Source of the DNA: a virus
DNA length: 60,828 bases
IMG/VR virus record: IMGVR_UViG_3300031707_002291
Coordinates: 1 to 60,828 of that record
Reading direction: 5' to 3' (one strand)
The notes under the pieces are model-generated. The model saw nothing but the letters and a program-made list of their open reading frames with translations. It ran no database searches and had not been told where the DNA came from. The translations under genes and the position numbers were made by a program. This document shows, one piece after another, positions 3,875 to 52,601 of the stretch (within the stretch, counting starts at the first letter, position 1; every line of letters begins with the position of its first letter).

Positions 3875-4825
3875 ATGCCGGCCACGGTCTACCTTCTCGA
3901 CATGCGATGGGGGCTGGGCGACGTGCTGTGCTGCACGCCGGCGGTACGGGCTCTCCGCGAGCGCGAGCCGGAAGCCACGATCCTCTTTCGTACTATTACG
4001 AAGGGGCGGCACCGCGTAGAGTACGACCCGCCAGGCAGCCCGCCGGGTAGCGGCGGCGCGCCTGACGAGATGCTCTGGTACAACCCCTACATTGCCCGAA
4101 TCCTTGACGTAGACGAGCGCGCGCCGGCCGGCGTTGCGGCGACCGAGCTCTACTACGTCAAGTATGGCGGGCCGCCGCTGGATAGACCGCTCCAGGGTCG
4201 CTACTTCGACTGCCTGGGGCTACCGTGGCCCGAGCGCTTTGACCTCGACTACTACATTCAGGATTTCGAGAGGGCCGACGCTGCCACCCTTCTCCAGCAG
4301 CAGGGCGGCAGCGCCCCGTACTGTGTCCTGACGCCGCGCGTGGGCTGGCCAGGCAAGATGTGGAGCGACGAGGGCTGGACCTACATCATCGGCCGGCTAC
4401 GCGAGTTCGGCTGGACGCCGGTAGTGATGGCGGGCCGCCGGCTACAGGGCCGGCCATGGGCCGACGCCGTGAACCTATCCGGCACGCTTGACGTCCGCGA
4501 GACCGCCGGCGTGCTCGACGCCTGCGAGGCGATGGTCTGCACCGAGGGCGGCCTGGCCCACCTGCGCTTCGCCCTGGGGAAGCCGGCCGTGGTCCTGACC
4601 TGCGCTACCTCCTACAAGGTCCAGGTCTGGGCGCCGCCCGAGCTCGTAACCGAGGTCCGGCATGCCCAATGGTGCGAGCCCTGCATGTGGCGCTTCGGCC
4701 ACGTCGAGGGCCGGCCCAGCACACCGCCAGGAAACACCCACGATTGCCCGCGCGGCATAACGCTCCGCGATCTGTCGGGCGACGCCGTCTGGGCCGTACT
4801 GCGGGAAAGGCTTTATGGGACGTAG
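3875..4825 (+). CDS. Glycosyltransferase family 9 (heptosyltransferase-like)
   Basis: A 316-residue GT-B enzyme. The N-terminal RWGLGDVLCCTPAVRALRE matches the GT9 opening motif, in which the GD-loop contacts the donor. The C-terminal half carries VCTEGGLAHLRFALGKPAVVL, the GT9 nucleotide-sugar signature region (usually D/E-GG-xxH). GT9 enzymes known from lipopolysaccharide synthesis transfer heptose from ADP-heptose. This matters here because the same genome carries an HldE-like kinase and adenylyltransferase at 47100-48487. A Cys-rich C-terminus (WCEPCMW and a later Cys) is unusual. First gene of the glycan block; donor and acceptor are inferred. Confidence 0.82.
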   Translation: MPATVYLLDMRWGLGDVLCCTPAVRALREREPEATILFRTITKGRHRVEYDPPGSPPGSGGAPDEMLWYNPYIARILDVDERAPAGVAATELYYVKYGGPPLDRPLQGRYFDCLGLPWPERFDLDYYIQDFERADAATLLQQQGGSAPYCVLTPRVGWPGKMWSDEGWTYIIGRLREFGWTPVVMAGRRLQGRPWADAVNLSGTLDVRETAGVLDACEAMVCTEGGLAHLRFALGKPAVVLTCATSYKVQVWAPPELVTEVRHAQWCEPCMWRFGHVEGRPSTPPGNTHDCPRGITLRDLSGDAVWAVLRERLYGT

Positions 4826-31493: not shown

Positions 31494-32030
31494 GTGGTTA
31501 CGATCGACGGCGCTGACCTGGCCCTGGCTCCCGAGGTGGTGGGGATGATCCAGGCCGTAGCCCGGCGGGCCGGCATCGCCGACGGCGTCGGCTACCTAGG
31601 CCGCGAGGACGTTCTAAGCGAGCTAATGCTGGTGGCCCTCCAGGCCGAGCCGCTATACGATCCTACGCGCGGCAAGTTCACCACCTTCGTCTGGAAGCGC
31701 CTGTGGGGCCGCGCCGTCGACCTGCGCCGCCGGCATGGGCGGCAGCTACGTGACGGCCAGCCTCGCCCCGTAGAGGTCGGCCTGGAGGAGGCCGAGTCCC
31801 TCGAGGATGGCTCGCCGTCCGCCAGCGACGGCAGTTTGATGCACGCCATCTCTCGCCTACCGGGCCGCGAGCGCGCGGCCCTTTTGATGCGCGACGTGGG
31901 CGGCGTGCCGGCCGCTGACGTGGGGCGCGTCCTGGGCATCGGTAAGAGCCAAGCCAAGGACCTACGCCGGCAGGCGGTCCGCCGGCTACATGTTGCCTTC
32001 CGGCCGGCAGGTGGCCGACCATTAGGGTAG
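31494..32030 (+). CDS. RNA polymerase sigma factor-like protein
   Basis: A 178-residue protein from GTG 31494. Residues ~35-85 match sigma region 2 (EDVLSELMLVALQAEPLYDPTRG; FTTFVWKRLWGRAVDLRRRHG), including the aromatic core that melts the -10 region. Residues ~120-165 match region 4, a helix-turn-helix (LPGRERAALLMRDVGGVP; DVGRVLGIGKSQAKDLRRQAVRRL). Two-domain size equals ECF/group 4 sigma factors. Its place between tail and lysis genes suggests a late-gene switch; see the GTCGACCATTA motif. Confidence 0.82.
   Translation: MVTIDGADLALAPEVVGMIQAVARRAGIADGVGYLGREDVLSELMLVALQAEPLYDPTRGKFTTFVWKRLWGRAVDLRRRHGRQLRDGQPRPVEVGLEEAESLEDGSPSASDGSLMHAISRLPGRERAALLMRDVGGVPAADVGRVLGIGKSQAKDLRRQAVRRLHVAFRPAGGRPLG
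32014..32030 (+). promoter_or_regulatory. Late-gene motif copy before the holin candidate
   Basis: GCCGACCATTAGGGTAG, a close copy of the late motif, overlapping the end of the sigma-like gene and 14 bases before ATG 32045. Confidence 0.45.
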
Positions 32031-32044
32031 GAGGATAAGGCCGC

Positions 32045-32317
32045 ATGAACATAAAGCTGAACGAGAAGCACATCATCCTAGGCGTCGTGGGCGGCGCCTT
32101 CCTGATTATGCTCCTCACGGCTAGCGTCTGTGTCATGCTCGGCCACGACGTGCCAGACGACTATTTCGCCTTCATGAAGGAGCTCGGCACCTTCTTCCTC
32201 GGCGGTAGCGCCATCGCCATTTTCGCCAACGGGGCTAAGAACGGGTGGAATAAGTTGAACGGCGGGACCACACCGGCGCCGCCTCCAGCGGTGGGGTCGG
32301 GGGCGCCGCCAGGCTAG
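32045..32317 (+). CDS. Holin-like membrane protein
   Basis: A 90-residue protein with TAGGAGG before ATG 32045. A strong membrane helix spans residues 10-32 (IILGVVGGAFLIMLLTASVC) and a second weaker one residues 46-62 (LGTFFLGGSAIAIFAN). A short basic stretch and a Gly/Pro tail follow. Size and helices fit a phage holin. It is placed before a possible cell-wall hydrolase, though the lysis role is inferred. Confidence 0.6.
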   Translation: MNIKLNEKHIILGVVGGAFLIMLLTASVCVMLGHDVPDDYFAFMKELGTFFLGGSAIAIFANGAKNGWNKLNGGTTPAPPPAVGSGAPPG

Positions 32318-32323
32318 GGTCAG

Positions 32324-32674
32324 ATGCACGTCCTGGTCGACATCAAGACCCGCCGCGTAGCGGCCCGCCGGGATTGGACCCCCCGCGCCGCTAACGCCTT
32401 TGTCGACCGCGCCGTAGAGATCACCGGGCTTAGCCCATTCGGCGAGCGCCAGGTAATCGAGCACGACGACCTGGTGATCTTCTGCCAGCTCATCGCCGAA
32501 TCCCACATCATCGGCCACCTGGATCGCCACCGCGGGCGGGCCTGGGTGGACGTCTTCTCGTGCCGGGATGTCGACGCCGACCTCGTGGAGGCCGCCGTCC
32601 TTCAGTACCTGGTGCCGCCCAGCGCCGCCAGCACCAGTACGGTGCGCGTCCTCGATCGGGGCATCCTACCATGA
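32324..32674 (+). CDS. speD: S-adenosylmethionine decarboxylase homologue
   Basis: A 116-residue protein, the size of the short prokaryotic AdoMetDC proenzyme. The self-cleavage site is visible in IAESHIIGH: cleavage between Glu and Ser would give the pyruvoyl group. The catalytic His lies five residues after that Ser and the catalytic Cys (VDVFSC) exactly twenty after it, the same spacing as in the bacterial SpeD class typified by Thermotoga. SpeD makes decarboxylated AdoMet, the aminopropyl donor for spermidine. Some phage homologues of this family have been reported to act on other amino acids, so the substrate is open. Confidence 0.85.
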   Translation: MHVLVDIKTRRVAARRDWTPRAANAFVDRAVEITGLSPFGERQVIEHDDLVIFCQLIAESHIIGHLDRHRGRAWVDVFSCRDVDADLVEAAVLQYLVPPSAASTSTVRVLDRGILP

Positions 32675-32782
32675 GGCCCGTCGGTGGAGACCTGGACGCC
32701 GCCCCGTTTCAGCACCGACCTGAGCGCCGGCAACCGCTTTAGTCCTGTCGGCTTTGACCGCCTGATCGGAAGGAGACTCACC

Positions 32783-33649
32783 ATGACACCGCAGCTCGCC
32801 GGCCGGCCTTGGGCCTGGTGGAATCAAAACAGCGACATCTCCTTTGACCTTGCCCGGCTCGTGCAGCGCGCCCTAGATGCGCGCCTGGGCGGCATACTCG
32901 CCAAATGGGGCTACCCGGATGTCGAGGCCGCCTTCGCCCGCGCGGGTCTGCCCTGGGGAACCGAGCGCTACGTATACCCTCACCAGGCCCAGCTCGAAGG
33001 GAATAGGCTGGCCGACGCGGTCGACGCCGGCGCCGTCCTGGCGGTGATCAACGCTGAGAAGGAGTGGGAAGCGCTGGACGCGGCGCCGATGGAGCTGTTG
33101 ATCGCCACGTTCAGGGCGCGCCATCCGACTACGGAGCTCTACGCTTCCGTCGACACCAGGGGGAACCGGCTAACGCTACCCTACCAGCGGGTCCTCGCCC
33201 AGCACGTCGCTGGCTGGTTGCCGATGATCTACCCGTTCGCCTTCTACGGCCGCGACGGCGAGGGTAACAGGATCACCCCGCCGCCGGACTTCGTGGCCCG
33301 AGCCTTCGCCGCCTGCATCGACGGCCACGACTTCGGCGGAATCCCCGTCTACCCGACGATCCAACTGTACGACGACATAGGCGCCGCGGCCGTCCAGCAG
33401 GAGCTTGCCGAGGTCGCCGCGCGAGGGCTGGAGGGCTACCAAGCCTACACGATCCCCCACGCTACGGCGCCTGAGTGGGCCGTGATCGTGAACGCGGCCC
33501 AGGAGGCCCCCATCGCGGAGCCGACCGTCGCCCAGGAGCTGGCCGCCATCCGTGCGCTCCAGCCGGCGCTGACGGCGGTAGACCTAGCGAAGCTGGTTGG
33601 GCAAATCCGCTGGCTCTACCTCCAGGCCGGCCGGCCGTTCCCGTCCTAG
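32783..33649 (+). CDS. TIM-barrel glycoside hydrolase-like protein, lysin candidate
   Basis: A 288-residue protein. ATG 32783 was chosen because AAGGAG precedes it; the frame is open upstream to 32684. The sequence alternates strand and helix as in a TIM barrel: VLAVINAEKEWEAL, TTELYASVDTRGN, HVAGWLPMIYPFAFYG, GIPVYPTIQLYDD. The Glu in NAEKEWE is in the usual place of a barrel catalytic acid. Family resembles GH25/DUF1906-like lysins in layout. Position after the holin supports lysis; the substrate is not established. Confidence 0.6.
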   Translation: MTPQLAGRPWAWWNQNSDISFDLARLVQRALDARLGGILAKWGYPDVEAAFARAGLPWGTERYVYPHQAQLEGNRLADAVDAGAVLAVINAEKEWEALDAAPMELLIATFRARHPTTELYASVDTRGNRLTLPYQRVLAQHVAGWLPMIYPFAFYGRDGEGNRITPPPDFVARAFAACIDGHDFGGIPVYPTIQLYDDIGAAAVQQELAEVAARGLEGYQAYTIPHATAPEWAVIVNAAQEAPIAEPTVAQELAAIRALQPALTAVDLAKLVGQIRWLYLQAGRPFPS

Positions 33650-33653
33650 CCGC

Positions 33654-33845
33654 ATGACGTGGCTCTACTATCGCGGTAACGCCCGCCGGACCATCGCCGG
33701 GCCCGCGACCGGCATGGCCTATAGCTGTGCGCCGCGTTCCTTCATCCAGGCCGAGGATGCTGACGTGGCCGGCCTTCTCCGCATGGTCAAGAGCCGGTGT
33801 GGCTGTGGCCACATGTTTCAGCGCCGGCAACCCCGCCGAGCTTGA
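33654..33845 (+). CDS. Small basic hypothetical protein
   Basis: A 63-residue protein five bases after the hydrolase. It ends in SRCGCGHMFQRRQPRR, with one CxC pair and a basic tail. Its stop overlaps promoter P4. Function unknown. Confidence 0.5.
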   Translation: MTWLYYRGNARRTIAGPATGMAYSCAPRSFIQAEDADVAGLLRMVKSRCGCGHMFQRRQPRRA

Positions 33846-33881: not shown

Positions 33882-34343
33882 ATGATAACGCGCGCCAGGG
33901 CCGTCCAGCGGTGGGCGAAGGATCGCCTATGCGCCGAGTGCGGCACCCGCCTAGTCGCAGGGCCGGCCGGCCCCCTCTGCCCTCTAACTCCGGGGCATGT
34001 GGGTTCCCTGACCGCCCCATCGGGCATCCTGGCGCGCGTCATGGTGGAATGGGGGCGGGGGCTGGAGGCCGATGCTGAAGTGGTGGCGGCCTATCGGGGG
34101 CCGCTGGCCTATTGGCTAATGCGGCTGCACATGTGGGGAAATCATCGCCTCTGCCCCTTCCTAAATCCGCTGTTGGGGGAGAACCTGGACTGTTACGCCG
34201 GCGAGGCGTTGAAGCATCCGCCGCCCTATCCGGGCCTGGCCGCGATCTCCCCGTCAGAGTGTGCCGCCGACTGTACCGCCGAGTGTACCGATCTCGGGAC
34301 AGATCGTGCGACAGTCGAGGCGGCCCTAGGAGGTTGCCAGTGA
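33882..34343 (+). CDS. Hypothetical Cys-rich protein
   Basis: A 153-residue protein whose ATG nearly coincides with the expected transcript start. It carries a zinc-ribbon-like CAECGTRL...LCPL and later scattered Cys (CAADCTAEC). A hydrophobic central part (LAYWLMRLHMWGNH) follows. Coupled by overlap to the RecT-like gene, so probably part of the same early operon; not recognised. Confidence 0.6.
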   Translation: MITRARAVQRWAKDRLCAECGTRLVAGPAGPLCPLTPGHVGSLTAPSGILARVMVEWGRGLEADAEVVAAYRGPLAYWLMRLHMWGNHRLCPFLNPLLGENLDCYAGEALKHPPPYPGLAAISPSECAADCTAECTDLGTDRATVEAALGGCQ

Positions 34344-35206
34344 CCCAGAATCAAGACCAGGCCCTGGTAGTAGTCGGCACGCGGCCGCTACCGGCCACCA
34401 AGCAAAACGTCGACACCATGAAGCGGTTCGTCCAGGTGATGGACCCCCGCGCCGACCCGAAACAGGCCTGGGCGCTAGCGGTCGTCGCCGTACGGCTCGG
34501 CCTGCACCCGTTCAATAACGAGGTCATGCTGTACGAGGGCCAGGTGTTCATCACGATCCACGGCCGGCGCCGGCTAGCGGAGCGGAGTGGCGATCTGGCC
34601 GCCATCCAGCCAGGGATCGTCAGGGACGAGCAACTCCGGCGCGACATGGGCGCCACCATCAAGGGCGACATCGTGGCCGAGTGCCGAATCTACCGGCGTA
34701 GCGACGAGCGCCCGACCATCCAGTACAGCCTGGTCCGCGCCATGGAGCGCTGGCCTAGCGACAAGGAAGCCGAGGCCCTCGGCGTTAGCCGCCAGCAGCT
34801 CGAGAAGCTGCGTAACAACGATGATCCCGACGGCCTGTTCGCCCTGGTTACAAATCCCCGCGCCAAGGTCCGGCCCATCATCATGCAGCCGCAGCTCATG
34901 GCGATGAAGCGGGCGGAGGCCCGCGCGCTCGACGCCCTGGCCGGCGTACCCCTACCGACATACGACCCGGAGATGGGTACCCAGGTCGCCAACGGCGTCC
35001 TGCCGGGCTACATGCTTCAGGAGGACCCAGAGCCCGCTCCGGCCCCGTCTACGGCCGAGCCATCGCCGCCGCCGCCGCCATCGACGCCGTCACAGCAAGA
35101 GGGCGGCGCCCAGCCCGAGCTCCGCCCGCCCTGCCCGAATAACTGGCAGACGTGCAACTGCGCCGAGCACCAGGCGGAGCGCCAGGCCCGCCGCGCCAGG
35201 GAGTAG
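34340..35206 (+). CDS. recT: RecT/Bet-like single-strand annealing protein
   Basis: A 288-residue protein from GTG 34340 (GGAGG six bases before; overlaps the previous stop). The core VAVRLGLHPFNNEVMLYEGQVFITIHGRRRLAERSG matches the conserved centre of phage RecT/Bet annealing proteins. Residues ~225-270 are a Pro/Ser linker and the C-terminus has a CxxC-like knot (CPNNWQTCNC). It would anneal resected single strands, a natural partner of the SbcCD pair. No separate RecE exonuclease was seen. Confidence 0.7.
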   Translation: MTQNQDQALVVVGTRPLPATKQNVDTMKRFVQVMDPRADPKQAWALAVVAVRLGLHPFNNEVMLYEGQVFITIHGRRRLAERSGDLAAIQPGIVRDEQLRRDMGATIKGDIVAECRIYRRSDERPTIQYSLVRAMERWPSDKEAEALGVSRQQLEKLRNNDDPDGLFALVTNPRAKVRPIIMQPQLMAMKRAEARALDALAGVPLPTYDPEMGTQVANGVLPGYMLQEDPEPAPAPSTAEPSPPPPPSTPSQQEGGAQPELRPPCPNNWQTCNCAEHQAERQARRARE

Positions 35207-47103: not shown

Positions 47104-48023
47104 GCCAAAGCGGCGGCGCGGCGGCTGACCGTCCGCCCTGGGCACCCCGATCGCCGATCCTAGTGATCGGCGACATCTGTACTGACGTATTCCTCCGGGT
47201 AGCGGCCTCGCGTTTGTCGCGCGAGGCGCCGTTACCCGTTTTCTCGTTGGAGGAGGATGCGATGGTGCCGGCCGGAGAGGCGGAGGGCGGCGCCGGCAAC
47301 GTGGCGCGCCAGCTTCGGGCCTACGGCGTCGATGCCGTGCTAGTGCCTACCGGCCATCAGCCCAAGGTGCGCGTCTTGGCTGGCGTGCCGCCCCGCGAGG
47401 TCTTCCGGCTTGACGGCGTGTGGGCCGCGCCAGCTTCGGAGACGATGGCCCGCGCGGCCGTCGAGATAGCGCGGCGGACGTTCTCGGCCGCCGTCTACGT
47501 TGACTATCAGGGAAGGGCTGGCCCGGCACCGGGCGCGGCAGTGGTCCTAGCCGGCCTACCGCGCGGCGAATGCCCGCTCCTGGTCGATGCCCGCTCTAGC
47601 CTCGAGGGCTGGTGGGGCGTCGACCTACTCAAGATGCACATCAGCGACGCCGGCCTGGGCGAGAGCCCGAACCCGACCGAGGTTCGGGCCGCCCTGGAGC
47701 GGTCGGGCGCCTTTCGCCTTATCCTGACGCGCGGCGCCGCCGGCCACATCCTAGTCGGCCCCCGCTGGATCTCTCCCCGGCCGGCGGTACAACTGGAGGG
47801 GCCGGTCCTGAACACCAGCGGCGCCGGCGACATCTTTACCGCTACCCTGGCCGCCCTAGTCGCCGGCCGGCCCTCGCTTCTAGCCAACAGGGGCCAGTTG
47901 GAAGGCGCGGCCGAGATCGCCAGTCGGGCGGCCGCGCTGCGGGTCCGCAAGTCGGGCTATAATGAGGCCGTCACGAGCGAGGAGATGGCGCCATGGTGGC
48001 CGTCTGGAACGCCGAGCCCCTAG
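47100..48023 (+). CDS. HldE-like heptose-phosphate kinase domain (PfkB family)
   Basis: A 307-residue protein from GTG 47100 (GTGA overlap with the HTH gene). It is like the N-terminal domain of HldE: ILVIGDICTDVFL at the start, EGGAGNVARQLRAYGVDAVLV for substrate binding, and LNTSGAGDIFTATLAALV, whose GAGD holds the catalytic Asp (about residue 244). HldE phosphorylates D-glycero-D-manno-heptose 7-phosphate at C1. In most bacteria it is fused to the adenylyltransferase; here the two parts are separate overlapping genes. The real sugar substrate is unproven. Confidence 0.82.
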   Translation: MSQSGGAAADRPPWAPRSPILVIGDICTDVFLRVAASRLSREAPLPVFSLEEDAMVPAGEAEGGAGNVARQLRAYGVDAVLVPTGHQPKVRVLAGVPPREVFRLDGVWAAPASETMARAAVEIARRTFSAAVYVDYQGRAGPAPGAAVVLAGLPRGECPLLVDARSSLEGWWGVDLLKMHISDAGLGESPNPTEVRAALERSGAFRLILTRGAAGHILVGPRWISPRPAVQLEGPVLNTSGAGDIFTATLAALVAGRPSLLANRGQLEGAAEIASRAAALRVRKSGYNEAVTSEEMAPWWPSGTPSP

Positions 48024-48487
48024 CCGACCTGGCGGCGCGCTGCCAAGCCCTCCGCCAACACCCGCCCCGCCGGCGCATCGCCCTGATTAACGGCTGCTTC
48101 GATGTCCTGCACCCTGGCCACGTCCTCATGATCCAAGACGCCGCTAGCCGATGCGACGTGCTGGTCGTGGCGATCGATACCGATGGCCAGGTGCATGCAC
48201 TAAAGGGGCGCGATCGGCCGCTCCGGTCCTGGGCCGAGCGGGCCTTCATGGTGGCCTCCATCCGCCGGGTCTTCGGCGTCGTGTCGCTGGGCGAGGGCCA
48301 GGCCCTGGCGACGGTCCTAGCCGCCATCAAGCCGGATCTCTACATGCACCGCGCCGGCGCCCCGCAGGCGGAGCTCGACGCGGCGACCGCTCTGGCCGTA
48401 GAGCTAGTCGAACTACCGGCCCACGGCCACTGGAGCACCACGAGGGAGTTGACACGATGGGAAGAAAGGCGACGAGACCTCCGGTAG
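47993..48487 (+). CDS. HldE-like nucleotidyl(adenylyl)transferase domain
   Basis: A 164-residue protein overlapping the kinase gene by 31 bases, with GGAG before ATG 47993. NGCFDVLHPGHVLMIQDAA contains the HxGH nucleotide-binding motif of the cytidylyltransferase/HldE-II family, and GHWSTTRELTRW the C-terminal STT motif. The usual KGGDY strand is altered (YMHRAGAP). It would join AMP to heptose 1-phosphate, giving ADP-heptose for GT9. The phosphatase step (GmhB) and epimerase (HldD) are not seen and would have to come from the host. Confidence 0.82.
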   Translation: MVAVWNAEPLADLAARCQALRQHPPRRRIALINGCFDVLHPGHVLMIQDAASRCDVLVVAIDTDGQVHALKGRDRPLRSWAERAFMVASIRRVFGVVSLGEGQALATVLAAIKPDLYMHRAGAPQAELDAATALAVELVELPAHGHWSTTRELTRWEERRRDLR

Positions 48488-49778: not shown

Positions 49779-52601
49779 GTGGCGCGGAAATCTACCCTCA
49801 CCCGGCTACCGGCCGATCTCATAGGCCAGCGCCGCGAACACGTCCGGCGCCTGGACCTCATCGGTGCCACGATCCCCACCATTCTCGCTACCCTACAAGC
49901 CAGCGCGGCCCACCTGATCGACGATCAGGCTAACCCGGCCCAAACCATACGGGACGACCTGGACGTGATCCGGGCCCGCGCCGTTGACGAACTCTCAGAC
50001 CTTGGCTCGGCCGCGCCCGGCGCCCGCGCGCTGGTCGACTACATCGCCCTGAAGCGGGTGCTTCTGAGCAACGCTATGGCGATGGCAGAGTCGCCGGCGC
50101 TAGCCCCCAGGGATCGCGCCAAGTTCCTCCAGGTGGCCAGCGTGACGGCAGACGACATCGCGCGGGCCAGAGGCGTACCCGTAGACCGGCCGGCCTTCAA
50201 CATCAACTTCCAACAGCAGCTCCTGGCCCTGGGCCTGCCGGCCGAAATGGTCGACATGTTAACAGCGGGTCCGGTTCGACAGGCTCAACAGGCGCCCCTT
50301 CTCCTACCGCCTGGCGCCGGCGGCGGGATCGTGGACGCCGTCACGTTCGGGATCTCGCCGGAGTTCTGTAACCTGCCGACCCTGGCGGAGTCCTACCCGA
50401 TGCAGGAGCGGGTACTACGCGATTTCATGTCGCCGCGGTCACTCTACCGCGTGCTGGTCCTGGTCTGCGGGATGCGCTCGGGCAAGGGCGTGGTGGGTAG
50501 CGTCGTCGCCTGGTACGCCGCTTATCAGCTCCTCTCGCTGGCCGACCCGCAGCGCTACTACGGCCTGGCGCCGGGCCAGGAAATCCAGATCGTCACCATG
50601 GCAACATCCCAGGACCAGGCCAAGCGCAACGTCTTTAAGCACATCGTTGACCGGCTGGAGACCGGCGGCGCCTGGTTTCAAGCCCTGCGCGCCCAGGCGG
50701 AGGTCGTGAGCCTGGAGATCCGCCTGCCCAAGAACATCCTGATCCGGTGCGGCCACTCCAAGGCGTCGACCCAGGTGGGCTCGACATCCTTCCTCGTGAT
50801 CCTTGACGAGCTGGCCCGCATGAAAGACACGGAGGGCCGCGACAACGCCGACGAGGTCTACGACAAGATGTCTGCTACGACCGCGACCTTCCCTGAGCAT
50901 GGGAAGGTCCTGGTCCTCACGTCGCCGGAGTGGGAAGGCGACAAGAGCATGAGGCTGTTGGAGGAGGCTACTGCCGTCGACCAGGACGGCCGGCAGATCA
51001 ATCCCGATATGATGGGCCTCCAGCTCGCCACCTGGGAAGCCAACCTAAACCTGAGCGAGGACGCCCTGGCCGAAGCCTTCCATCGCGACGCGAATCCTAT
51101 GGCGTTCTGGCGCGACTTCGGGGCCCGGCCGCCGCTAGCCGCCGAGGGTTACTACCCTGACCCGAGCCGATGGGATCGCCAGGCCGACCCAGACCTGCGG
51201 CATCCGTACGACGAGAACGAGCAGCTCGCCGATTGGTGGCTGCCGTGCTGCGACTCCCGCCGCTACGTCCACATCGACCTGGGCGCCAAGCGCGACGCGT
51301 GCGGGCTCTCCATGGCCCACGCGCCAGTCGCTGGCTGCCCGTACTACAAGACCATCATGCAGGACGGCCAGCTAGTCGAGAATCCGCGCGCCCGCGCGGT
51401 GGTGGTCGACATGATCCACCAGCTCGTCCCCGGCCGCCGGCGGGAGATGAAGGGCGAGGTCTCCTTCGAGACCGTACGCCAGATGATCCGTGATTGGCAG
51501 GATCGGGGCTTCAAAATCAAGGGCGGCCTGGTCAGCTACGACGGCTGGCAGAGCCTCGATAGCCGGCAGCTCTTGAAGCGCGAGGGCTACAAGGTGGCGG
51601 AGTTCTCGCTAGACCGGAACACCGAGGGCCACGACACGCTTCAGGAGCTCATCAACACCGACCGCCTGGCGTACTACGCCCATGCCGTCCTCATCGCCGA
51701 AGGCAAGCGCCTCATGCTCGTACACGGCAAGAAGGTCGACCATCCCAAGGGGGGCTGCTTTACTGGGGATACCAGGATCGCACTGCTCGATGGCAGCAAT
51801 CCAACCATCGCAGAATTGGCGGCGCGCGGCCCAGGTCCCTATTACGTCTTTACGATGGGAGAAGACGGAATCACGGTCGGCGTTGCACACTCGGCCCGAC
51901 TCACCTCGCCGGACGCAGAGATCATCGAGTTGACCTTGGACAGGTTCGATACGGTTCGCTGTACGCCCGACCATCGCTTCCGCCTCCTGGACGGCCAATA
52001 CAAGGAAGCCCGTGCGCTGCTTCCGGCGGATCGCCTTGCGCCTCTCTACCGCGCTGTCGTCATGGAAGGCGGCTGGCAGGGGTATGTACGGATTACGTGC
52101 CCCGTTAATGGCCGCCGGATGGTTCACGACCTCGTCGGCCAATGGAAATATGGTCCCAAGCCAGTTGGGATGCTTTACCACCACCTAGACAACGATGGGA
52201 TGAATAACGATCCGGCCAATGTTGACATATGGACCGAGGCCGAGCACGCACGGTACCACACTACGCTGCGCCACAAGACCGATCCGGGATACAACCTGAA
52301 GGTCCGCCTAGGGGCGGCGGCTTATGCCCGGTCGGAAGGGGGTCGTCAGAAGTCTAGGGAGACGATCCTTGCCAATATGCCAAAGTTGCTGGCCGCCCGG
52401 CGCATTGGCCCCAATCATCGGGTCGTTAGGATAACTGCCGCTGGCCGCGCCTCCGTTTACGATCTCACCGTCGAGGGCACCTCCAACTTTGCCCTCTCCG
52501 CTGGCGTCTTCGTGCACAACTCGAAGGATGTGGTCGACGCGGTCGCCGGCGCCGTCTACCACGCGCTGAAGCATGGCGGACGCATCGCCTTCGTGGGCTA
52601 G
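49779..52601 (+). CDS. terL: Terminase large subunit with intein and N-terminal extension
   Basis: A 940-residue precursor from GTG 49779 (the upstream frame is open but overlaps the methyltransferase). Walker A VCGMRSGKG is near residue 227, Walker B VILDELARM near 345, and nuclease residues in HIDLGAKRDACG and LVSYDGW. A 255-residue intein (Cys1 at 660 to Asn 914) interrupts the nuclease end; after splicing, HPKGG joins SKDVVDAVAGA, placing the catalytic Asp pair. The mature protein is 685 residues. Its first ~190 residues are helical and precede the ATPase; they may be a fused small-subunit-like domain. No separate terS was found nearby. Confidence 0.9.
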   Translation: MARKSTLTRLPADLIGQRREHVRRLDLIGATIPTILATLQASAAHLIDDQANPAQTIRDDLDVIRARAVDELSDLGSAAPGARALVDYIALKRVLLSNAMAMAESPALAPRDRAKFLQVASVTADDIARARGVPVDRPAFNINFQQQLLALGLPAEMVDMLTAGPVRQAQQAPLLLPPGAGGGIVDAVTFGISPEFCNLPTLAESYPMQERVLRDFMSPRSLYRVLVLVCGMRSGKGVVGSVVAWYAAYQLLSLADPQRYYGLAPGQEIQIVTMATSQDQAKRNVFKHIVDRLETGGAWFQALRAQAEVVSLEIRLPKNILIRCGHSKASTQVGSTSFLVILDELARMKDTEGRDNADEVYDKMSATTATFPEHGKVLVLTSPEWEGDKSMRLLEEATAVDQDGRQINPDMMGLQLATWEANLNLSEDALAEAFHRDANPMAFWRDFGARPPLAAEGYYPDPSRWDRQADPDLRHPYDENEQLADWWLPCCDSRRYVHIDLGAKRDACGLSMAHAPVAGCPYYKTIMQDGQLVENPRARAVVVDMIHQLVPGRRREMKGEVSFETVRQMIRDWQDRGFKIKGGLVSYDGWQSLDSRQLLKREGYKVAEFSLDRNTEGHDTLQELINTDRLAYYAHAVLIAEGKRLMLVHGKKVDHPKGGCFTGDTRIALLDGSNPTIAELAARGPGPYYVFTMGEDGITVGVAHSARLTSPDAEIIELTLDRFDTVRCTPDHRFRLLDGQYKEARALLPADRLAPLYRAVVMEGGWQGYVRITCPVNGRRMVHDLVGQWKYGPKPVGMLYHHLDNDGMNNDPANVDIWTEAEHARYHTTLRHKTDPGYNLKVRLGAAAYARSEGGRQKSRETILANMPKLLAARRIGPNHRVVRITAAGRASVYDLTVEGTSNFALSAGVFVHNSKDVVDAVAGAVYHALKHGGRIAFVG
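51756..52520 (+). other. Intein in terminase, with HNH-like homing endonuclease
   Basis: It begins with CFTGDTRIALLDG (block A, Cys1), has CTPDHRFRLLDG (block B, with His) and ends VYDLTVEGTSNFALSAGVFVHN (blocks F and G). The first downstream residue is Ser. The middle contains LYHHLDNDGMNNDPANVDIW followed by a His, an HNH-type motif. All splicing residues are present, so it should be active. It sits exactly between HPKGG and SKDVVDAVAG, the conserved terminase nuclease motif, a favoured intein site. Confidence 0.92.

Follow-up and report, generated by a model that had tools for sequence, protein, structure and literature searches.

A divergent SpeD-family protein encoded among the lysis genes of a group of related phages

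The genome of a soil-type phage analysed here (the window, an IMG/VR virus record of 60,828 nucleotides taken at its full length) encodes, between a small membrane protein and a candidate endolysin, a divergent member of the SpeD family of pyruvoyl decarboxylases, and related phages carry the same gene in the same place. We give a probability of roughly one half to the reading that this protein is a pyruvoyl decarboxylase which processes itself, which probably has a substrate other than S-adenosylmethionine (AdoMet), most likely arginine or ornithine, and which is made together with the lysis proteins. In phages, SpeD homologues count as metabolic genes, and in the named phages examined they mostly lie beside replication or nucleotide genes. 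If active, the protein described here would either represent a further change of substrate within the SpeD family, where such changes are already known, or connect a pyruvoyl decarboxylase with phage lysis for the first time.

The gene (32324..32674, plus strand) runs from an ATG to a TGA and encodes a 13-kDa protein of 116 amino acids. Its residues 20-104 match the Pfam family PF02675 with 33.6 bits (cut-off 25, E 5e-8), the intact relatives scoring 27.2-43 bits, and the product also matches phrog_3125, “S-adenosylmethionine decarboxylase” (E 2.5e-6). The NCBI equivalog for AdoMet decarboxylase (AdoMetDC), TIGR03330, gives 17.9 bits, below its cut-off of 75.65, which marks the protein as a distant AdoMet_dc member. 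An AlphaFold2 model built from 21 sequences reached a pLDDT of 94.5 and a pTM of 0.88; the top solved structure is the AdoMetDC of T. maritima (Foldseek E 1.4e-5), structure 1vr7 being matched with Z 14.2 over 108 residues (rmsd 2.9), and the A. aeolicus enzyme is matched with Z 13.0. The product is a true AdoMet_dc/SpeD family protein with the class 1b SpeD fold. A previous sequence-only reading of this DNA had described the frame as an AdoMetDC homologue with an ESH motif, a His at +5 and a Cys at +20 from the Ser, and both parts of that description are borne out, the homology by the two profiles and the model and the motif by its residues (Ser60, His65 and Cys80). Since related phages keep this motif at 34-62% identity and the model matches the T. 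maritima enzyme, the motif is not a product of chance.

Relatives were reached via the capsid gene and via a four-sequence SpeD profile; a scan of viral contigs with the single SpeD-family sequence returned no relative. Identity to the window protein is 60-61% for the copies of G001 and G002, 34-40% for those of G003, G005 and G007, and about 40% for that of G008, and pairwise identities among the six copies of the lineage range from 34% to 86%. Their six-way alignment contains 26 invariant columns among 111 shared ones, all four catalytic residues included. The gene is under purifying selection, a simple counting method giving dN/dS values of 0.14-0.55 for five pairs (some of them with high dS), which argues against a decaying gene. 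A SpeD phylogeny, proposed in the sequence-only reading, placed the six copies (G008 was found later and is left out of the tree) in one clade with support of 100/99 and a long stem, beside the canonical SpeDs with weak support, but did not fix its deeper place: alternatives, including a joining with the proven arginine decarboxylases, gave AU p values of 0.14-0.33. The tree does not group the clade with the SpeD of pelagiphage HTVC201P, a joining with which is not rejected either (AU p 0.137). Neither G004 (capsid 62%) nor the fragment G010 has a SpeD match. A further contig, G009 (L093:1331-1720), contains a divergent SpeD-like frame located after the lysin, in which the His lies at +7, not +5, and no clear ATG, GTG or TTG start is seen. 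This frame is possibly decaying, and its displaced His indicates that the SpeD function may be dispensable.

The predicted self-cleavage site, Glu59-Ser60 (32498..32503, plus strand), where Ser60 would become the pyruvoyl group, aligns with Glu62 and Ser63 of the T. maritima enzyme, and the codons of His65 (32516..32518, plus strand) and Cys80 (32561..32563, plus strand) correspond to His68 and Cys83, residues of processing and catalysis; on the T. maritima side this residue alignment is approximate, and the match of the structures does not depend on it. S63, H68 and C83 have been named as essential for self-processing (PMC10407285). Glu, Ser, His and Cys are invariant in the seven phages with intact copies (the six of the lineage plus G008), with the Cys at +22 or +23 from the Ser in G003, G005 and G007. 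On the other hand, the position of T. maritima Ser55 is occupied by Ile52 in the window and by Met in the relatives, so that this Ser is lost in all seven. The human AdoMetDC variant S229A, analogous to this loss, cannot be activated, whereas T. maritima S55A still activates, perhaps with Glu62 as the base (PMC3975893). Self-cleavage is thus plausible in the window protein, as the S55A variant activates and the base-capable equivalent of Glu62 is retained; the reading of the Ser55 loss as an absence of self-cleavage was rejected on the same T. maritima result. In this sense, the “intact active site” announced from the sequence alone holds for the catalytic residues but not for Ser55 or the substrate-side Trp-Pro-Glu motif, and the accompanying statement that the site is the same as in bacterial SpeD goes too far, Ser55 and Trp70-Pro71-Glu72 (T. 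maritima numbering) not being kept.

These losses also bear on the idea of a catalytically silent SpeD-fold protein, which would bind and modulate another protein, such as the host SpeD or a lysis protein. Precedent exists in the trypanosome prozyme, a dead paralogue that activates AdoMetDC (PMC5201418), and the missing Ser55 equivalent in seven of seven phages, the vanished substrate-motif residues, the locking of the gene into the lysis cassette and the displaced catalytic His of the G009 copy would all agree with such a role. We nonetheless regard it as unlikely, because the catalytic Glu, Ser, His and Cys are invariant although most of the protein changes, and there is no evident reason for a silent protein to retain a cleavage site.

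The neighbourhood of the gene is a conserved block that opens with a Sigma-70-like protein (31494..32030, plus strand; PF08281 33.3 bits, PF04542 31.5 bits) and ends with a RecT-like annealing protein (34340..35206, plus strand; PF03837 33.1 bits), the latter being 46-67% identical in the relatives. The common gene order is sigma-like protein, membrane protein(s), SpeD, endolysin, small protein, an additional gene and RecT, the stretch read in G008 stopping short of RecT. A small membrane protein and holin candidate (32045..32317, plus strand) ends 6 nt upstream of the SpeD start. Its product has one clear transmembrane segment by hydropathy and gave no match in a Pfam holin search; membrane proteins occupy the same slot upstream of SpeD in the relatives, and the label “holin-like” is given solely from size, hydropathy and position. 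Downstream of SpeD lies the TIM-barrel-like endolysin candidate (32684..33649, plus strand), with its likely start at ATG 32783, preceded by AAGGAG. Its low-confidence AlphaFold2 model (pLDDT 60.6) shows a (beta-alpha)n pattern and resembles many TIM barrels with Z of about 10-11, the lysins 2nw0 and 3hmc among them. An enzyme-family name for this protein was considered and dropped, given the weakness of the model and the tie among many unrelated TIM barrels. Positions 32684-32782 form a conserved in-frame leader (STDLS..N..SP.GFD) ahead of the likely lysin ATG, and in G001 and G002 this leader begins a separate short ORF. After the lysin comes a small conserved protein (33654..33845, plus strand), 44-62% identical in the relatives.

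SpeD stands between a membrane (holin-like) gene and an endolysin gene in seven of seven phages, the window included, while the endolysin types differ: an Amidase_2 protein in G002, a similar protein in G001, the TIM-barrel-like protein in the window and, as we read their sequences, apparently lysozyme-like proteins without a Pfam match in G003, G005 and G007. The earlier placement of the gene between lysis genes is therefore sound, with a membrane-protein gene 6 nt upstream, the TIM-barrel-like protein downstream and the Amidase_2 protein in the corresponding slot of G002. In G001 (TGATG) and G002 (TAGTG) the start codon of SpeD overlaps the stop codon of the gene before it, and in G003, G005, G007 and G008 its own stop codon overlaps the start of the lysin gene; together with the gene order, these overlaps support the translation of SpeD along with the lysis genes, and we infer that its expression is late. 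A literature search for phage papers dealing with SpeD, holin and endolysin gave a sole match, which concerns host SpeD.

Position and activity need not go together, and the gene could be active and still be no more than a metabolic passenger (moron) of the ordinary kind, its place among the lysis genes meaning nothing for lysis. This is a possible explanation, to which we give rather less than even odds, and it is compatible with the enzymatic reading that we prefer. In other phages SpeD sits in unrelated places, beside DNA polymerase, ribonucleotide reductase (RNR) or thyX genes, the divergent G009 copy follows the lysin rather than preceding it, and G004 is without SpeD despite a related capsid; a mere passenger would fit poorly, however, with the same slot in seven phages despite different endolysins (amidase, lysozyme-like, TIM barrel), and with start and stop codons overlapping those of the neighbouring genes. 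At the opposite end, it would be a long shot that a self-cleaving SpeD-fold protein, its gene overlapping or abutting those of holin and endolysin, is a working part of the lysis cassette, its decarboxylation product or the protein itself setting the time or completeness of lysis, with a substrate new to the family.

With regard to the substrate, Asp67-Arg68-His69 (32522..32530, plus strand) replace in the alignment the Trp70-Pro71-Glu72 of AdoMetDC-type enzymes, so that the His-Thr-Trp-Pro-Glu of AdoMetDCs becomes His-Leu-Asp-Arg-His in the window. The Trp70 and Glu72 of class 1b enzymes take part in AdoMet binding. Both the Trp and the Glu are absent in all seven copies and the Pro in five (window, G001, G002, G007 and G008), while G003 and G005 have Asn-Pro-Lys, with the Pro at +8 by plain counting. 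The Pro after the catalytic His (HTWPE) has been described as present without exception in bona fide AdoMetDCs (PMC10407285). The loss of Trp-Pro-Glu, taken together with the lack of a spermidine synthase in these phages, suggests that the substrate is probably not AdoMet, and the substrate shift put forward in the sequence-only reading is consistent with that loss. Its background statement, that phage relatives of SpeD decarboxylate other amino acids, is likewise found in the literature (PMC9992855; PMC10407285), phage SpeD homologues having been described to decarboxylate arginine or ornithine (PMC9992855). Gln, Thr, Phe and Tyr have been reported as the diagnostic residues of SpeD-type ornithine decarboxylases or SpeDC (PMC10407285); with the columns inferred from the operon-borne SpeDC-like protein of the phage locus L031, not a validated enzyme, the window protein has the Gln, and Glu, Leu and Trp for Thr, Phe and Tyr. 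Arginine or ornithine would thus be a best guess, taken from the published relatives and not from the residues found here.

A genuine AdoMetDC, feeding decarboxylated AdoMet to a host spermidine synthase, has to be weighed against this preferred reading, and we consider it improbable, with odds well short of even. The SpeD of phage phiN3 is a proven AdoMetDC (PMC9992855) without Trp-Pro-Glu, so that AdoMet is compatible with the loss of the motif, and G003 and G005 have their Pro at +8; set against this are the Trp and Glu missing from every copy, the Pro missing from the other five, and the TIGR03330 score far under its cut-off. The AdoMet_dc family, the fold and the weakly supported position of the clade beside canonical SpeDs would accord with an AdoMetDC, as would the partner enzyme available in a host like the Methyloceanibacter MAG that contains G007 (see below), while no phage speE is present in the window, G001, G002, G003 or G005.

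The genomic setting can be outlined as follows. The first and last 127 bases of the window are identical, and the genome is therefore probably complete. Searches for spermidine synthase (PF01564) and for the arginase/agmatinase family found none in the window, G001, G002, G003 and G005. The phage contig of G007, a complete relative with a 141-bp end repeat, was binned with a Methyloceanibacter MAG, which faintly suggests a host of this type. Phages are often misbinned. The MAG has a canonical speD adjoining speE, and such a host would accordingly need no phage gene for the decarboxylation of AdoMet. Positions 30000-52600 have no close counterpart at the DNA level among named phages, and a tRNA search of the window was negative. 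An IS1595-type transposase lies inside the phage genome (45272-46228, minus strand), and comparison of this element with plasmids for host inference gave no match. The “six SAM-methyltransferase-type genes” previously counted are roughly right, three being above the Pfam cut-off, one a C-terminal fragment and two sub-threshold. The suggested control of SAM pools finds no support: these genes are DNA methylases or lie within a glycosyltransferase-rich cluster, and neither spermidine synthase nor agmatinase was found in the phages searched. Genes for a PfkB-type kinase and, after it, a cytidylyltransferase occur at positions 47262-48487 and 3875-4825 along with a heptosyltransferase-like gene of the GT9 type and several more glycosyltransferases; the set resembles a pathway for ADP-heptose or surface sugars carried by the phage. 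Positions 49779-52601 encode a protein resembling the terminase large subunit that carries an intein splicing domain as well as an HNH endonuclease.

Under the preferred reading of a lysis-associated decarboxylase, the class 1b SpeD-fold proenzyme would most likely cleave itself between Glu59 and Ser60, converting Ser60 into the pyruvoyl group, which together with His65 and Cys80 would decarboxylate a small substrate bearing an alpha-amino acid group; the conversion of arginine to agmatine or of ornithine to putrescine is the most likely outcome. SpeD would belong to one transcription unit with the membrane-protein and endolysin genes and, being partly coupled to them in translation, would be made late, and the cationic compound that it yields could be of use for packaging the DNA or in the final phase before lysis. 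A role of polyamines in DNA packaging has been proposed in the literature (PMC3120641), and would suit late expression of SpeD.

Other SpeD loci came to light during the searches. In L031:3505-5061 (also L032-L034, IMG/VR phage contigs), genes for a SpeD of canonical appearance and for a SpeDC-like ornithine decarboxylase homologue adjoin one for spermidine synthase (PF01564, 224.9 bits), so that these phages may carry a whole operon leading from ornithine to spermidine. In Microcystis phage MaAM05 (MW495066.1, 245258-251578; L073), two SpeD genes, a spermidine synthase and an agmatinase are consecutive, which suggests an arginine-to-spermidine pathway within one phage. Two Bacilli MAGs (L038:4551-5279 and L052:4566-5237) encode a two-domain SpeD, with an N-terminal domain seemingly devoid of the pyruvoyl Ser and a C-terminal domain that keeps QLIAESHI without Trp-Pro-Glu; no polyamine genes were noticed nearby.

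Among known systems, the class 1b AdoMetDC/SpeD enzymes (T. maritima 1tlu/1vr7, A. aeolicus 2iii) share with the window protein the fold (106-108 residues, Z 13-14) and Glu62, Ser63, His68 and Cys83, but are only 18-24% identical to it and differ in Ser55 and Trp70-Pro71-Glu72; bacterial speD is moreover usually paired with speE, which the window lacks. The arginine decarboxylase of pelagiphage HTVC201P (PMC9992855) is likewise a SpeD-family phage gene without the AdoMetDC-type Pro, but it has Thr for the Glu before the Ser and Thr at the place of Ser55, still has the motif's Trp and Glu (HSWDE), both lost in the window protein, and adjoins a ribonucleotide reductase instead of lysis genes. 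The SpeDC proteins (PMC10407285; the phage proteins LBP and UCP01-04, PMC9992855) have in common with the window protein the Gln five residues before the Ser, and diverge in Thr, Phe and Tyr, by the columns inferred from L031. The best full-length match among named phages, the SpeD of Sinorhizobium phages phiN3/phiM12 (25.7% identity), is also without Trp-Pro-Glu, but has Asp for the Glu before the Ser, keeps Ser55 and lies outside a lysis cassette. Substrate-shifted phage SpeD homologues are already published, and what is new here is a divergent SpeD clade that consistently occupies the same position within the lysis cassette.
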